IMG/VR virus record: IMGVR_UViG_3300041409_000215
Location: 1-34,100 of that record
Source: a virus
DNA: 34,100 nt
Direction: 5' to 3' (one strand)
Shown here: one piece after another, positions 16,144-21,369 of the stretch
Numbering within the stretch: position 1 is the stretch's first letter
How the letters are laid out: each line of letters begins with the position of its first letter
Made by a program: the position numbers and the translations under genes
Notes under the pieces: model-generated
What the model saw: only the letters and a program-made list of their open reading frames with translations
Database searches by the model: none
Told to the model about the DNA's origin: nothing

Positions 16144-16401
16144 ATGCCAAAGAGATCACCAATCCCCCAAGAAGCGGTGGATCATTACCATCGCATTCTC
16201 GCCATCGCCGATTCCGTCCCGGAAATCCCCGCTCTGGAGAAGGGAACCATATTGCTTTCCTTGCTCAGTAGCGGACGACTTGATGGCAAGACCACAAAGG
16301 AGTCTCAAGACATTCTGATCCGCGCCTACGCGGAACGTGCTAACGAAAATCCCCCAGCGGATCTGACATCCGCGCCTGCTTCTTCAGCCGGTTCACCTTG
16401 A
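16144..16401 (+). CDS. Possible small rightward gene antisense to the late operon
   Basis: An 85-residue frame on the opposite strand to all its neighbours. It begins MPKRSPIPQEAVDHYHRIL and has a helical, well-mixed composition, with a Pro/Ala/Ser-rich tail. Its last 62 bases overlap the 3' end of the large terminase gene; otherwise the roughly 200 bases between terminase and the gp13-like gene would be empty. No Shine-Dalgarno or promoter is obvious. It may be a moron gene with its own promoter, or chance. Function unknown. Confidence 0.4.
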   Translation: MPKRSPIPQEAVDHYHRILAIADSVPEIPALEKGTILLSLLSSGRLDGKTTKESQDILIRAYAERANENPPADLTSAPASSAGSP

Positions 16402-17887
16402 CGAGCCGCTTGACAGCAGCTTTGGTCCGGCCGTGCCATCCAAGGATCACTGCATCCGCATCGTCAGTGCTGGCGCCGAGCCGCTTCCTGATCTCGTCCT
16501 TGGCCTCAATCACAACAGCGGCACCGCGTAGCTTCCACCGGGGGGCGGTCAACTGCGCTCTTAGCCGACGATCAGGTGGCAATGCCGGCATCTCCCGAGG
16601 ATCATTCTCCGCAGGGTCCAAAGCTTCACGGAACGCCCACCACAGCTCGGAACGCATGTTGGCGTAGTAGTAATCGCCCTTCTTCGTCCGCTTGCTGGAT
16701 GCGGCGGAAAACACAATGCCTTCGACGTCAATGTTTTGCGCCGAGAGATGGTCGCGGGCTGAAATGCCCCAGCCGCCCGTCATGTCGATCACCGGCACCG
16801 CGCCGTGCCGCATCGTCTTCAGCACCAGCCCGGCAACGGCAGGGCCGTCTTTTGTGTCAACGCCCTTCTCGCGGACGAGCGGATCGAAGCGCACGCCCCG
16901 CACGGGCGCAAGAACCGTGTCGTCCGGCCCGCCCTGAGCTACATCAACGCCGATCGCATCCATGGTGCGGGGCTGTTCCGACTTGCGCCAGCGCTCCTCG
17001 GCAAGATCAATCCACGCTGTCGGAATCACCTGCCACGGGTCATCTTCCCGGCCGGCGAGGAAGTCACCCTTGAGGAGCTGCGAGCGCAGCGGCTCAGGTA
17101 GGTTTTGAATACGCGACCGATAGCCGGTCTCACGCAGATACGGGTTGTCTTCAAGCAGAGCCGGAATGAACGTCCGCGACAGTGGCGTGTAGGTGTCGCC
17201 ATCAATCAGGACCGGCTCAGGCCCATCAGCCCACCGTGTCGCTTCGCCAACGGTAATGGCCCACCTGATTTCGCCTGGAGCCGCAGGGTTTGGATGCAGC
17301 GGGTCCAGCCACGGCGCGAACCACTCAATCAGCCAATCCCCTTCTCCACCCATTGGCGGGTTGGAGGCGATGACAGCGCGCGTTCGCTGACCCGGTAGCG
17401 TCGTGCGTAGCCAGCCGAGAACAAAGGCGACCTTGGACGCGGAAAGCTGAGCGCCTTCATCGAATCCCAGAAGATCGTGCGGTCGTCCTTGCCAAGAGAA
17501 CTCCGATCCGGGCTTCTCAAGAGCACCAAACTCCAGGACCCGACCGTCAGACCGCAGCAACATGTCCGCGCCGTTGTAGCCCTCGCGCGTTCCGCGTATC
17601 TCAATCAGTCGTTCCTCAACGCCTCGCAAATCCACATAAGCACGGCGGAAGATGACGGATCGCTTGTGCTGCGTTAGTGCCAGGCCCAGCAGTAAGTCCG
17701 TCTTGCCGCCGCCAGCTGCGCCGCCATAAAGAAGCAGGTCCGCTTGTGAGTAGAAGGCGTCCGATTGAGGCCCCGGATTGGGCAACCAGGGCGATTGCAG
17801 TTCGTCCGCAATCAGCTTGTCCAGACTGGCCTTGTCGGCGGGCTCCATGCCGCGGACTAGAGACTCTAACTCGGCAAGGACATCCAT
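16340..17887 (-). CDS. Terminase large subunit
   Basis: A 515-residue packaging motor. The ATPase domain has Walker A GGAAGGGKTD (residues 55-64), Walker B LLGFDE (139-144) and the motif III-like IASNPP (173-178). The nuclease domain begins near GVDVAQGGPDD (D315), with a second acidic site at VIDMTGG (D368) and a third candidate in DDADAVILGWHG near the C-terminus. It cuts concatemers and pumps DNA through the portal. The start overlaps the small-subunit stop by one base (TGATG), giving the usual subunit pair. The C-terminus is basic (KAAVKRLVKVNRLKKQ). The sequence looks intact. Confidence 0.95.
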   Translation of the reverse strand: MDVLAELESLVRGMEPADKASLDKLIADELQSPWLPNPGPQSDAFYSQADLLLYGGAAGGGKTDLLLGLALTQHKRSVIFRRAYVDLRGVEERLIEIRGTREGYNGADMLLRSDGRVLEFGALEKPGSEFSWQGRPHDLLGFDEGAQLSASKVAFVLGWLRTTLPGQRTRAVIASNPPMGGEGDWLIEWFAPWLDPLHPNPAAPGEIRWAITVGEATRWADGPEPVLIDGDTYTPLSRTFIPALLEDNPYLRETGYRSRIQNLPEPLRSQLLKGDFLAGREDDPWQVIPTAWIDLAEERWRKSEQPRTMDAIGVDVAQGGPDDTVLAPVRGVRFDPLVREKGVDTKDGPAVAGLVLKTMRHGAVPVIDMTGGWGISARDHLSAQNIDVEGIVFSAASSKRTKKGDYYYANMRSELWWAFREALDPAENDPREMPALPPDRRLRAQLTAPRWKLRGAAVVIEAKDEIRKRLGASTDDADAVILGWHGRTKAAVKRLVKVNRLKKQARMSDPLGDFR

Positions 17888-18378
17888 CAGTGAGCCGTAG
17901 GCTTGTCGCCCTTCGACTTCGCCACCAAAGCGGCAATAGCCTTTGCCCTATCGCGGTCACTGACATCGGCCGTCTCGATCGGCCCGCCATCCTTACCCGT
18001 GACTTCCTGCCTGTCGCGCCACCGCTCGGGCTGGCGGTTCTTTAGCCAGAAGATGCCGGCCGTCGTGTCAGGCGGGTAGTGCTCCTTATAGGGAACAATG
18101 ACCGGCTCCGGCGCGCCTGACGGCATAAAAATCTTCACCGCCTCATGCGTGTAGCCGATGGCGCGCTGATAGAGGCTTTCCTCGACACGGGCATCCGCTT
18201 CAGCCTTGGCTTCCTTTAGGGCCTCGCAAAAGTCGGGGTGGTCGTTCTTCCATCGGTAAAGCGTAGCAACGCTCACGCCAAAGAAGTCAGCCATCTCCAC
18301 GTCAGTGGCGCCGAGCCGGCAAAGCTTTCTCGCCTGCCCTACAAAGGCAGGGTCATAGAGAGACGGTCGCCCGGTCAA
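17887..18378 (-). CDS. Terminase small subunit
   Basis: A 163-residue protein starting TGRPSLYDPAFVGQARKLCRLGATDVEMADFFGVS, the helix-turn-helix opening of many small terminase subunits, with LYRWKNDHPDFCEALKEAK following. It recognises the packaging site and loads the motor. The only start before the conserved region is TTG at 18378; its bases overlap the stop of the preceding 53-residue gene (ATTGA), and GGGGA lies about seven bases upstream, so a coupled TTG start is likely. The large subunit follows with a one-base overlap. Confidence 0.9.
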   Translation of the reverse strand: MTGRPSLYDPAFVGQARKLCRLGATDVEMADFFGVSVATLYRWKNDHPDFCEALKEAKAEADARVEESLYQRAIGYTHEAVKIFMPSGAPEPVIVPYKEHYPPDTTAGIFWLKNRQPERWRDRQEVTGKDGGPIETADVSDRDRAKAIAALVAKSKGDKPTAH

Positions 18379-18536
18379 TCCGCATCCCCATCAGTCCCAG
18401 CCCCATCCGCGGCGGAGGAGCCATTGCGGGCTTCCTCCAGCTTGCGGACGCGCTTTTCCAGTTCCCGCAGATCGGCAAGCGAGGTCGGATTGAACTCGCC
18501 TACCGTGCTCTCAGGACTGGCGGCATCCTTGCTCAT
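18375..18536 (-). CDS. 53-residue coiled-coil protein before the terminase
   Basis: Translating the minus strand from the ATG at 18536 gives 53 residues with a heptad-like stretch LADLRELEKRVRKLEE (about 20-35) and an acidic Gly/Asp-rich tail. It begins directly after the stop of the 134-residue gene (TGAATG) and its stop overlaps the TTG start of the small terminase. The tight packing argues that it is a true gene. Function is unknown. It is a likely candidate for being missed because of its length. Confidence 0.65.
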   Translation of the reverse strand: MSKDAASPESTVGEFNPTSLADLRELEKRVRKLEEARNGSSAADGAGTDGDAD

Positions 18537-18941
18537 TCAGGCGGCTTTTCGGGCCGGCCTGGTGTTCTTCGCCGGCTGAGACGCGGAGCCAGGATCGGCG
18601 TCGGACGATTCCTTGGCGTTCGTGTCGGTGCCGCGCTGCTTGGCATGGGAGGTGGACGGATCCACGCCGCGCTCAGGCGTGTTCACATCAGCGAGGCGCG
18701 TGACGCCCGTTCCGTAACGATCACCGATACCGCCTTCCTCGGGAAATCCGAACCCGCCGACAGCCTCACCCTTGCCGCCGCGGACCATGCCGATCATCAC
18801 GCCGCCGTCGACTTCCTCGACCTCGTAGCGCTCGACTTGATCCTGGTTGATCTCCGGCTCGGTGCCGTCCATCAGTTTGATGTCGATGACTTCGCCGGTT
18901 TCCTTGAGGATCACGGCCCAACGTCCAGATGCAACTGCCAT
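18537..18941 (-). CDS. Hypothetical phage protein upstream of the terminase
   Basis: A 134-residue acidic protein. The N-terminal half (residues 1-65) has beta-like sequence (GRWAVILKETGEVIDIKLMDGTEPE); the C-terminal half is Ser/Thr/Asp/Pro-rich and probably disordered, ending in a basic RPARKAA. AGAAAGGA lies about six bases upstream of the ATG. I do not recognise the family. It is the first gene of the terminase group and is followed without a gap by the 53-residue coiled-coil gene. Confidence 0.65.
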   Translation of the reverse strand: MAVASGRWAVILKETGEVIDIKLMDGTEPEINQDQVERYEVEEVDGGVMIGMVRGGKGEAVGGFGFPEEGGIGDRYGTGVTRLADVNTPERGVDPSTSHAKQRGTDTNAKESSDADPGSASQPAKNTRPARKAA

Positions 18942-18967
18942 ATTCGTTCCTTTCTGGGGTTGGCGCG

Positions 18968-19183
18968 CTATGCGCCCTGCAAACGAAACCGCGACCTACG
19001 CGACTGGTCGGGTGGCGACTTGTCCCGTCGTCTCTGGGGCGGGCTTTCCAATGGGTTTGGATGCTCGACTTGTGCCAGCACGGAACCGGCTAGACTCTTC
19101 TCGCGGGCAGGAGATTCCGGGTCCCTGAGAGCAGCAACGGCGAGCTGCGCCACCTTGGGCGATGTCGTCTTGCTGCGGGCCAT
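18968..19183 (-). CDS. Conserved small protein (KTTSPKVA family)
   Basis: A 71-residue protein opening MARSKTTSPKVAQLAVAALRDPES with SLAGSVLAQV after it. Short proteins with KTTSPKVA and a following AxSxLxQ helix are widespread in Proteobacteria and their phages; function unknown. I use the ATG at 19183 rather than the GTG just before it, with AAAGGA about nine bases upstream. Its leader, 19193-19212, is identical over 20 bases to the leader of the next upstream gene. The C-terminal part is basic and Pro/Arg-rich. Confidence 0.65.
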   Translation of the reverse strand: MARSKTTSPKVAQLAVAALRDPESPAREKSLAGSVLAQVEHPNPLESPPQRRRDKSPPDQSRRSRFRLQGA

Positions 19184-19192
19184 CACGCCGCG

Positions 19193-19212
19193 TCCTTTCG
19201 TGCTTCGGATTG
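19193..19212 (-). repeat. Duplicated 20-base leader, copy 1
   Basis: tcctttcgtgcttcggattg on the plus strand, identical to 19567-19586. On the minus strand it carries the AAAGGA ribosome-binding sequence of the 71-residue gene. Confidence 0.85.
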
Positions 19213-19221
19213 GCCGGGATG

Positions 19222-19632: not shown

Positions 19633-20145
19633 TCAATCTCGCGCATATTCGCCATAGACCTCGCGGGCTTTAGCCACATACGCGGCATGGGCCTCTTCCG
19701 GCGTGTCAAACATGCCTAGATAAATGCCGCTGCCATGTTTGCGCCCCGCGCCGAGCATGGCGCGCCACTTACCCTCGCGCTTCAGGTAGCAGACACCTTT
19801 GTAGCCGCTGGTATTCGTTCTGAGCGCCCGTTTATTGGCAGCGTTCTGTTCGGCCGTGGCAAGCCGCAGATTAGCCCAACGATCATCCGCGCGGTCGCAG
19901 TTGATATGGTCCACCTGCAGGCTGGGCCACTCGCCCGTCATGTAGACCCAAGCGACCATTCCTGCCCTGAGTGAGATGCCGCCAAAGGCAATCTGCGTGT
20001 AGCCTTCGGCCGTTCGACTCCCGGCGCGCTTCCCTATCTGGACGCCAGGGCGACTGACCTTCCACCGAAACTCGCCGGTCTCCGGGTCATAGTCCAAATC
20101 CCGGCGAATGTTCTCAACCTGCGGACGCGGTTTAGGCACGACCAA
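19633..20145 (-). CDS. HNH endonuclease with AP2 DNA-binding domain
   Basis: A 170-residue protein of the free-standing HNH homing-endonuclease type. The middle holds the HNH core: VDHINCDRADDRWANLRLATAEQNAANK (about 78-105), with His in VDHIN and Asn in NLR. The C-terminus (GYKGVCYLKREGKWRAMLG...YLGMFDTPEEAHAAYVAKA) is an AP2-type domain. Start codons are poor: TTG at 20145, four bases after GGAG, or GTG at 20139. It overlaps the 3' end of the HExxH gene by 14 bases. The gene looks like a mobile insertion between two phage hypothetical genes. Confidence 0.88.
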   Translation of the reverse strand: MVVPKPRPQVENIRRDLDYDPETGEFRWKVSRPGVQIGKRAGSRTAEGYTQIAFGGISLRAGMVAWVYMTGEWPSLQVDHINCDRADDRWANLRLATAEQNAANKRALRTNTSGYKGVCYLKREGKWRAMLGAGRKHGSGIYLGMFDTPEEAHAAYVAKAREVYGEYARD

Positions 20146-20542
20146 GCATCTCCAAGGCTTTCAGCTTTAGTCGATACATATCGACTTTCGGCGCAGTAGC
20201 GGCCATTGCCGAAACTCTACCATTCAGAAAGGCTTGGAAGCAAATAGAAAGGGCCTCTTCGCGCAGAATAGCGTCGCTCTCGCCGACGTATCCATGCGCC
20301 AATGGCCACAGAACTTTCGACGGACTCGGCACAGCTTGCAGATGCTCAGAGACAAAATGATGGCAGAACTCGTGGTCTACCATGTAGGCGGTTATATCTT
20401 CGTACCCCAGCCACTCGGCAAGCGCGCGATACTCGGCAGTGTCGTGTGCCAGCGCGCCGTAGGTCTTGCCGTCCAGAAAGACGCTCTCGCACCAGCCTTC
20501 GTGAATGCGCAGCTCGCAGAAGGTGAGCTGGATGGAATGCAT
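20132..20542 (-). CDS. Hypothetical protein with an HExxH motif
   Basis: A 136-residue protein. Residues 56-63 read DHEFCHHF, so His57, Glu58 and His61 form an HExxH motif as in zinc metalloproteases. Homologue-like phrases (VDHEFCHHF...VLWPLAHG) seem familiar from phages, but no peptidase function is known to me and no third ligand can be assigned. I prefer the ATG at 20542 over the GTG just before it; AGGAG lies five bases upstream. The 3' end overlaps the HNH gene. A candidate terminator hairpin lies just upstream, so it may have its own promoter. Confidence 0.65.
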   Translation of the reverse strand: MHSIQLTFCELRIHEGWCESVFLDGKTYGALAHDTAEYRALAEWLGYEDITAYMVDHEFCHHFVSEHLQAVPSPSKVLWPLAHGYVGESDAILREEALSICFQAFLNGRVSAMAATAPKVDMYRLKLKALEMLGRA

Positions 20543-20560
20543 CACGGCTCCTGATAAAGC

Positions 20561-20594
20561 GAAAGCCCCGCAGCGGTGAGGCTACGAGGCTTTC
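20561..20594 (-). terminator. Hairpin following the 20620-20738 structured element
   Basis: GAAAGCC (20561-20567) pairs with GGCTTTC (20588-20594) around a GC-rich loop; on the minus strand it is followed by GCTTTAT. It lies 26 bases past the structured element and before the HExxH gene, so it could end a short non-coding transcript. Confidence 0.4.
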
Positions 20595-20619
20595 TGGCGC
20601 ACCCGGAAGATGGCTCCAC

Positions 20620-20738
20620 GGATTCGAACTGGTAAGCCTGTCTATTCCGAGACCCACGCCATTAACGCGCTTCGCTCGTTATCCCTGCACGGGCGGAAGG
20701 TGCAGCTTCCGCAGACAGGCCAACTAGGCCGAGAATCC
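20620..20738 (-). ncRNA. Candidate structured, tRNA-like RNA (element 1)
   Basis: This lies in the 266-base gap between coding regions 20132-20542 and 20809-21369. GGATTC (20620-20625) can pair with GAATCC (20733-20738), and GCCTGTCT (20636-20643) with AGACAGGC (20713-20720). Inside, GCGGAAG/CTTCCGC (20693-20699 with 20706-20712) is a 7-bp hairpin, and CTGCAC/GTGCAG (20685-20690 with 20700-20705) is a competing one. TAACG/CGTTA (20663-20681) forms another hairpin. Minus-strand GGCC-TAGTT-GGCC resembles a D-arm and GTTCGAATCC a T-loop, but no canonical cloverleaf or anticodon arm can be built. The strand is inferred from these motifs and from the hairpin that follows. Confidence 0.4.
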
Positions 20739-20808
20739 AAAAGGGCCGCCAGCGACAAATGCTGCGACCCTATCTATCCGTAACGCCTGCCACGGTTCGC
20801 GCCGCATG

Positions 20809-21369
20809 TCAAGCGGCCTTCTCGCGCATCCACTCGGATACCCGGAACAGCCGAGCCAAAGCGTTCAGCCCGAGCCGCAGATCGCCTATGACGCGGTGCA
20901 CTTCCTGGTTCTCTATCACCCAAAGGTCCACGGCCCTCTGCGCCAAGGGATCAGCTTCGGCCAACGCCTGGCGCGCCGCAGCCATGCCGTCATAGGCGGA
21001 GCGGCAGCTCGCGACGTAGCGCTCGTCCGTGCCGTCCCGGTTGTCATGCCCTCCGCCTCGATCCAGGTCGGCAGGCGAGCCCAATCCTCCGGCGAGGATG
21101 GCACGCGAATATCGCTCCTTGAGCTTTGCATATTCCACCCCCGCTTCGTATTGAGCCTCGGTGATCTCCCCTGCCCTGCGCAGACGGCCTATGGCCGATC
21201 CAAGGGCCGGGTCGTTGGCTTGTGCCGCGGTTACCCCGAACTGCCGCTGGCGCGCTGTTATGGCCGGAGACATGGTTTCCTCCTTGCGCTCCGACCTGGT
21301 GCGCTTGATTTGTCCGCTGGGATGACGAACCGCCATGCTCTTGCGGCGTCCCTTCCGGGTCTTGGGCAT
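20809..21369 (-). CDS. Conserved phage protein with basic N-terminus
   Basis: A 186-residue protein. The N-terminal 32 residues are strongly basic (MPKTRKGRRKSMAVRHPSGQ), with the phrase RHPSGQI often seen at the start of such rhizobial phage proteins. Then comes a helical body: ARQRQFGVTAAQANDPALGSAIGRLRRAG (about 39-67) and a second helical half ending LFRVSEWMREKAA. It probably binds nucleic acid through the basic tail, but this is inference. An internal ATG at residue 33 is an alternative start. The stop of the upstream gene abuts its ATG (TAAATG). Confidence 0.6.
   Translation of the reverse strand: MPKTRKGRRKSMAVRHPSGQIKRTRSERKEETMSPAITARQRQFGVTAAQANDPALGSAIGRLRRAGEITEAQYEAGVEYAKLKERYSRAILAGGLGSPADLDRGGGHDNRDGTDERYVASCRSAYDGMAAARQALAEADPLAQRAVDLWVIENQEVHRVIGDLRLGLNALARLFRVSEWMREKAA

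Follow-up and report, generated by a model that had tools for sequence, protein, structure and literature searches.

A candidate late-gene control region beside a gene for a remote GafZ-like protein in a temperate Hyphomicrobiales phage

The late region of phage lambda is ordered as the Q gene, the promoter pR', the 6S leader and the terminator tR', followed by the late genes, and the known Q proteins differ among themselves. Likeness to a lambda Q region lies in this order: an anti-terminator gene comes first, then a promoter and ~200 nt of leader that close with an intrinsic terminator, and then the late genes. In the Caulobacter crescentus GTA, the promoter on which GafZ acts has a long untranslated leader, and GafZ enables polymerase to get past terminators that precede the structural genes of a phage-like particle (PMC11150451). 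This anti-terminator, whose binding element sits between the -35 and -10 boxes, is similar to the C-terminal domain of GafA (PMC11150451), and GafA of Rhodobacter capsulatus matches proteins annotated as DUF6456 (PMC9638019).

The window, i.e., the whole 34.1-kb stretch of viral DNA analysed here, belongs to a temperate podovirus with a CI-like repressor, TerL, a head-tail adaptor, and major head and tail genes, and its TerL shares ~45% identity with the one in Bordetella phage BPP-1. A gap at 20543-20808 separates two minus-strand genes, one encoding 186 aa (20809-21369) and the other 137 aa (20132-20545), and lies at the boundary between replication and regulatory genes and the late operon (HNH, TerS, TerL, portal, capsid). 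We estimate a probability of about 0.66 that this gap is a Q/GafZ-type late-gene control region of a temperate Hyphomicrobiales phage, consisting of a leader and a terminator beside the gene for an anti-terminator. The gene order, the hairpin, the protein homology, and the recurrence of a -35 box and a terminator behind related genes argue for this reading. The features, all on the minus strand, are as follows.

20809..21369, minus strand: 186-aa gene, phrog_15385 (E 1e-23); remote DUF6456 (GafA C-terminal/GafZ-like) protein, candidate late anti-terminator
20807..20812, minus strand: candidate -35 box TTGACA lying across the stop codon that ends the 186-aa gene, proposed from sequence and recurrence in relatives
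20596..20783, minus strand: putative leader RNA that contains the nested helix GGATTC/GAATCC, GCCTGTCT/AGACAGGC and GCGGAAG/CTTCCGC; folding mildly above shuffles
20561..20594, minus strand: intrinsic-terminator hairpin, z -4.71, terminator-like in the scan
20132..20545, minus strand: 137-aa gene, the first past the terminator; no family; start at ATG 20542 or GTG 20545, AGGAG upstream
19633..20145, minus strand: HNH endonuclease (phrog_99, E 2e-60), the second gene past the terminator
16340..18378, minus strand: small and large terminase subunits (phrog_309; phrog_979/phrog_2), where the packaging and structural genes begin

The 186-aa DUF6456-like protein would be loaded onto RNA polymerase at a promoter with a -35 box lying across the end of the protein's own gene. 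Polymerase without the protein would produce some 200 nt of leader RNA and terminate at the hairpin (about 20561), and polymerase bearing the anti-terminator would pass the terminator into the terminase, head and tail genes. We infer promoter activity, loading of the protein there, and the overcoming of the terminator at 20561-20594 from the arrangement of the locus. The likeness to lambda is one of gene order, and the structural model of the 186-aa protein has no significant match in the PDB (Foldseek). The C. crescentus GTA shares a DUF6456-type protein with the window, although the homology of the window protein is remote and its role a putative one. The 229-nt untranslated stretch in the GTA reporter (PMC11150451) is comparable to the window's leader of about 200 nt. 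However, the gafYZ operon lies elsewhere, whereas the candidate gene in the window is directly upstream, and the terminator studied in C. crescentus follows the first gene, whereas that of the window precedes the first late gene.

By profile comparison, the family of the 186-aa protein is remotely homologous to DUF6456, which is the domain found in the GTA regulator GafA. Homologues in phrog_15385 occur in Rhizobium phages, IMG/VR contigs and Hyphomicrobiales genomes, with 43 of 397 sampled Hyphomicrobiales genomes (about 11%) carrying one, compared to 2 among the 384 genomes sampled elsewhere in the class. The Pfam model PF20057 (DUF6456) matched neither the 186-aa protein nor 17 relatives, even at E up to 5; a control search found the family in Caulobacter vibrioides. 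Profile-profile alignment of 65 family members with 21 DUF6456 proteins by hhalign covered 129 collinear columns with Prob 96.5 and E 9.6e-10, compared to Prob 0.5 for a reversed-sequence control and Prob 46 (E 2e-4) for an earlier, smaller comparison. The relation is visible only between profiles and stays below the curated Pfam cut-off. The AlphaFold model of the protein has a pLDDT of 74.5, and its top Foldseek matches are uncharacterised phage proteins, with a DUF6456 protein at rank 4. Homology to GafZ does not prove anti-termination, and the protein is best described as a candidate anti-terminator. The family phrog_15385 gains a testable role as a GafZ-like late anti-terminator. If this is true, the GTA regulators GafA and GafZ have working phage relatives with control regions that can be identified from sequence, and a simple reporter would suffice to test the late switch in many rhizobial phages.

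An intrinsic terminator lies between the candidate promoter and the late genes. The hairpin at 20561-20594, already noticed on the minus strand in the first-pass annotation, has 14 uninterrupted pairs, a six-base loop and the tail GCTTTATC, was terminator-like on this strand in a consensus scan, and ends a few bases upstream of the AGGAG of the next gene. The same arrangement recurs behind related genes. Of 64 distinct phrog_15385 relatives, 9 have TTGAC across the stop codon of the gene itself, vs 9 among 411 other stops (p 1.5e-4), and 14 have an intrinsic terminator no more than 250 nt downstream, vs 7 of 197 (p 2e-5). The window is left out of these counts, which take related phages to be independent; the p values are too favourable for this reason and because TTGAC is more likely at a TGA stop. 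L139, L142, L147, L148 and L153 are typical examples. Both flanking genes of the gap have homologues in one prophage (L195, G253), at 31% (186-aa) and 50% (137-aa) identity, with TTGACG-N17-TCAGAT at the end of the 186-aa homologue and, soon after, the terminator CCGCC...GGCGGGTTTTGC. Another prophage (L170) encodes a protein above the Pfam cut-off for DUF6456, and TTGACA lies where that gene ends, followed by the terminator GGGCTGCGCC-GATC-GGTGCGGCCCTTTCGC and, shortly after, TerS. The -10 hexamers of such promoters in relatives are better than chance (p 0.003). Inverted repeats in the spacer between -35 and -10, comparable to the GafZ element, are marginal across relatives (p 0.048) and poor in the window. 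At a further set of loci (L012-L014, L041-L045, L048), a conserved inverted repeat, TAGGA-N6-TCCTA, sits directly on the stop codon of the phrog_15385 homologue and is perhaps an operator or loading site.

Several observations count against the late-control reading. No -10-like hexamer was found 16-18 nt past TTGACA in the window (1 of 6), and the hexamer at the expected place, 20784-20789, is CAGGCG. The U-tract past the hairpin is short and has interruptions. Neither a promoter nor a terminator is seen at the two nearest homologues (L137, L138), and the TTGAC box, absent in most family members, belongs to a minority of the family.

The only DNA-level relative of the window is an identical contig in IMG/VR, with no DNA match among annotated phages. 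The other TerL relatives are at most about 50% identical, and none of them has the neighbouring genes, which the identical contig keeps. The 137-aa downstream gene has no homologue among annotated phages and plasmids. The Rhizobium phages RHph_Y25, RHph_Y1_10 and RHph_N2 resemble the window in having a phrog_15385 gene, then 280-420 nt of non-coding DNA, small genes and TerL; however, they have no gap sequence in common with it, and no sequence motif of the leader is common to the window and its relatives. Within the window, a further stretch with few coding regions lies upstream of TerS at 18379-19221, where small ORFs have no family matches.

The first-pass annotation described the gap as a long, nested structured element with mutually exclusive folds, and its parts are real. 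All three perfect arms were located, i.e., GGATTC/GAATCC at 20620-20625 and 20733-20738, GCCTGTCT/AGACAGGC at about 20636-20644 and 20713-20720, and GCGGAAG/CTTCCGC at 20693-20699 and 20706-20712. The loop of the third, GTGCAG, can pair with the adjoining CTGCAC at 20685-20690, and the local folds do compete (-9.8 vs -6.6 kcal/mol). However, perfect arms are no commoner than in dinucleotide shuffles, with 11 vs 8.5 ± 3.1 of at least 6 bp, 3 vs 2.2 of at least 7 bp, and 1 vs 0.56 of at least 8 bp. Thermodynamic folding of the minus strand gave z -3.39 for the whole gap relative to shuffles, mainly because of the hairpin at 20561-20594, which alone reaches z -4.71. The leader without the hairpin (20596-20808) has z -2.15 and the nested core z -1.84, and when the same strand is cut into 128 consecutive tiles along the window, 23 have z of -2 or lower. 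With the arms at chance level and the hairpin carrying the fold signal, the terminator hairpin is thus the one clearly non-random structure. An H-type pseudoknot between the GCGGAAG hairpin and CTGCAC was dropped; reasoning from sequence, it is sterically implausible because its connecting loops would be only 0 and 2 nt. A search against Rfam 15 gave no match at curated cut-offs, and matches to HIV-1 SL4, SNORD63, HOXA11-AS and the rnk leader at E up to 10 are at chance level.

There are two other explanations of the gap. It may be a plain intergenic region, in which the hairpin serves only to stop the regulatory transcript arriving from upstream, GC-rich spacer without constraint makes up the remainder, and the late promoter lies elsewhere, e.g., in 18379-19221. 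Chance-level arms, leader folding that is ordinary for this genome, the missing -10 hexamer and the lack of conservation of the gap sequence with relatives are all expected under this explanation, but the recurrence of the -35 box and the terminator behind homologous genes and the DUF6456-like neighbour gene are not, and we regard it as rather unlikely. A protein-independent attenuator or riboswitch-like leader of the 137-aa gene, with two folds of which one suppresses the terminator, would account for the leader and terminator right before a ribosome-binding site and for the competing local hairpins. In addition, AGGCTT in the leader can pair with AAGCCT in the terminator arm over 6 bp. Six-base pairings are nevertheless expected by chance (8.5 per shuffle) and are far weaker than the 14-bp terminator, this one has no relatives for comparison, and no Rfam family matches, so that an attenuator seems very improbable. 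The late-control reading remains the one we prefer, and the earlier suggestion of a regulatory RNA is partly right, in that the late operon probably has its leader and terminator here.

The proposal of a tRNA mimic or a decayed tRNA gene drew on two minus-strand motifs, a D-arm-like GGCCTAGTTGGCC (20718-20730) and a T-loop-like GTTCGAATCC (20620-20629), and both sequences are present. The T-loop-like decamer has a chance probability of about 0.001 in so short a stretch, which favours the proposal, although the motif was chosen post hoc; a second GTTCGANTCC occurs at 20012, within a gene. The proposal found no support in the window. ARAGORN found no tRNA in the gap at default settings, and was also run with relaxed thresholds and introns, where matches below about 90% of the threshold are noise. 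The Rfam tRNA model had no match in the gap even at E up to 10, and the suggested Infernal/Rfam check thus returned neither a tRNA nor a known RNA family at curated thresholds. Judged from the letters, a T-stem around TTCGAAT (ACCAG-TTCGAAT-CCGTG) would have 2 of 5 pairs, the T-arm scan lists none in the gap, and the same strand offers no partner for an acceptor stem. The D-arm-like and T-loop-like segments form the two sides of one imperfect helix in the minimum-energy fold. A tRNA origin of the window's element is accordingly most doubtful. The link to tRNA is still of interest because some relatives have atypical tRNA genes in the equivalent slot, among them those of L149 and L140, which speak for the proposal.

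The tRNA-like elements of relatives are leads and are no part of the window's element. Two of them lie in the late leaders of prophages, L149 and L140. In L149, positions 127-196 after the stop encode a tRNA-Gly(UCC) with a very short D-arm and an encoded CCA, found by default ARAGORN. In L140, the minimum-energy fold at about 2148-2221 of the strand read is a cloverleaf with a CAU anticodon and a CCA end, which ARAGORN missed, and L037 has a sub-threshold tRNA-Sec match of 22.9 bits. T-arm motifs in the 500-nt stretches numbered 7 on the sense strand vs 1 on the other. Several Rhizobium phage gaps contain modular tRNA-like elements, unlike the window. We give little credence to the idea that the leader RNA itself is functional, as a structured tRNA-derived or tRNA-mimicking element of late leaders in Hyphomicrobiales phages that serves anti-termination or RNA processing, with the Rhizobium phage modules as its better preserved forms.

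The modules have features of their own. Downstream of phrog_15385 in L005, L006, L019-L022, L028, L029 and L037 lie modular structured elements, partly tRNA-like, whose interiors are unrelated and whose common flanks are GATCGGGAAGG...CTTCCCGTACCCATCACCACCATCCCATAGCC and TTTGGAATG...CATTCCAAAGCC; those of L005 and L006 have no Rfam match at curated thresholds. In L025, the first 150 nt past the stop of the phrog_15385 gene (which ends at 972) carry a T-arm/acceptor half, GCCGGTTCGAATCCGGCCCGCTAC, upstream of a D-arm half, GGCGGTAGCTCAGTTTGGAAGAGCG. Both halves are canonical, their order is that of a permuted tRNA gene, and the would-be anticodon-stem segments match at 8 of 9 positions by eye. 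In Rhizobium phage RHph_Y1_10 (L006, 105-638), an annotated RNA ligase 2 gene lies a few kb upstream of the tRNA-like elements.
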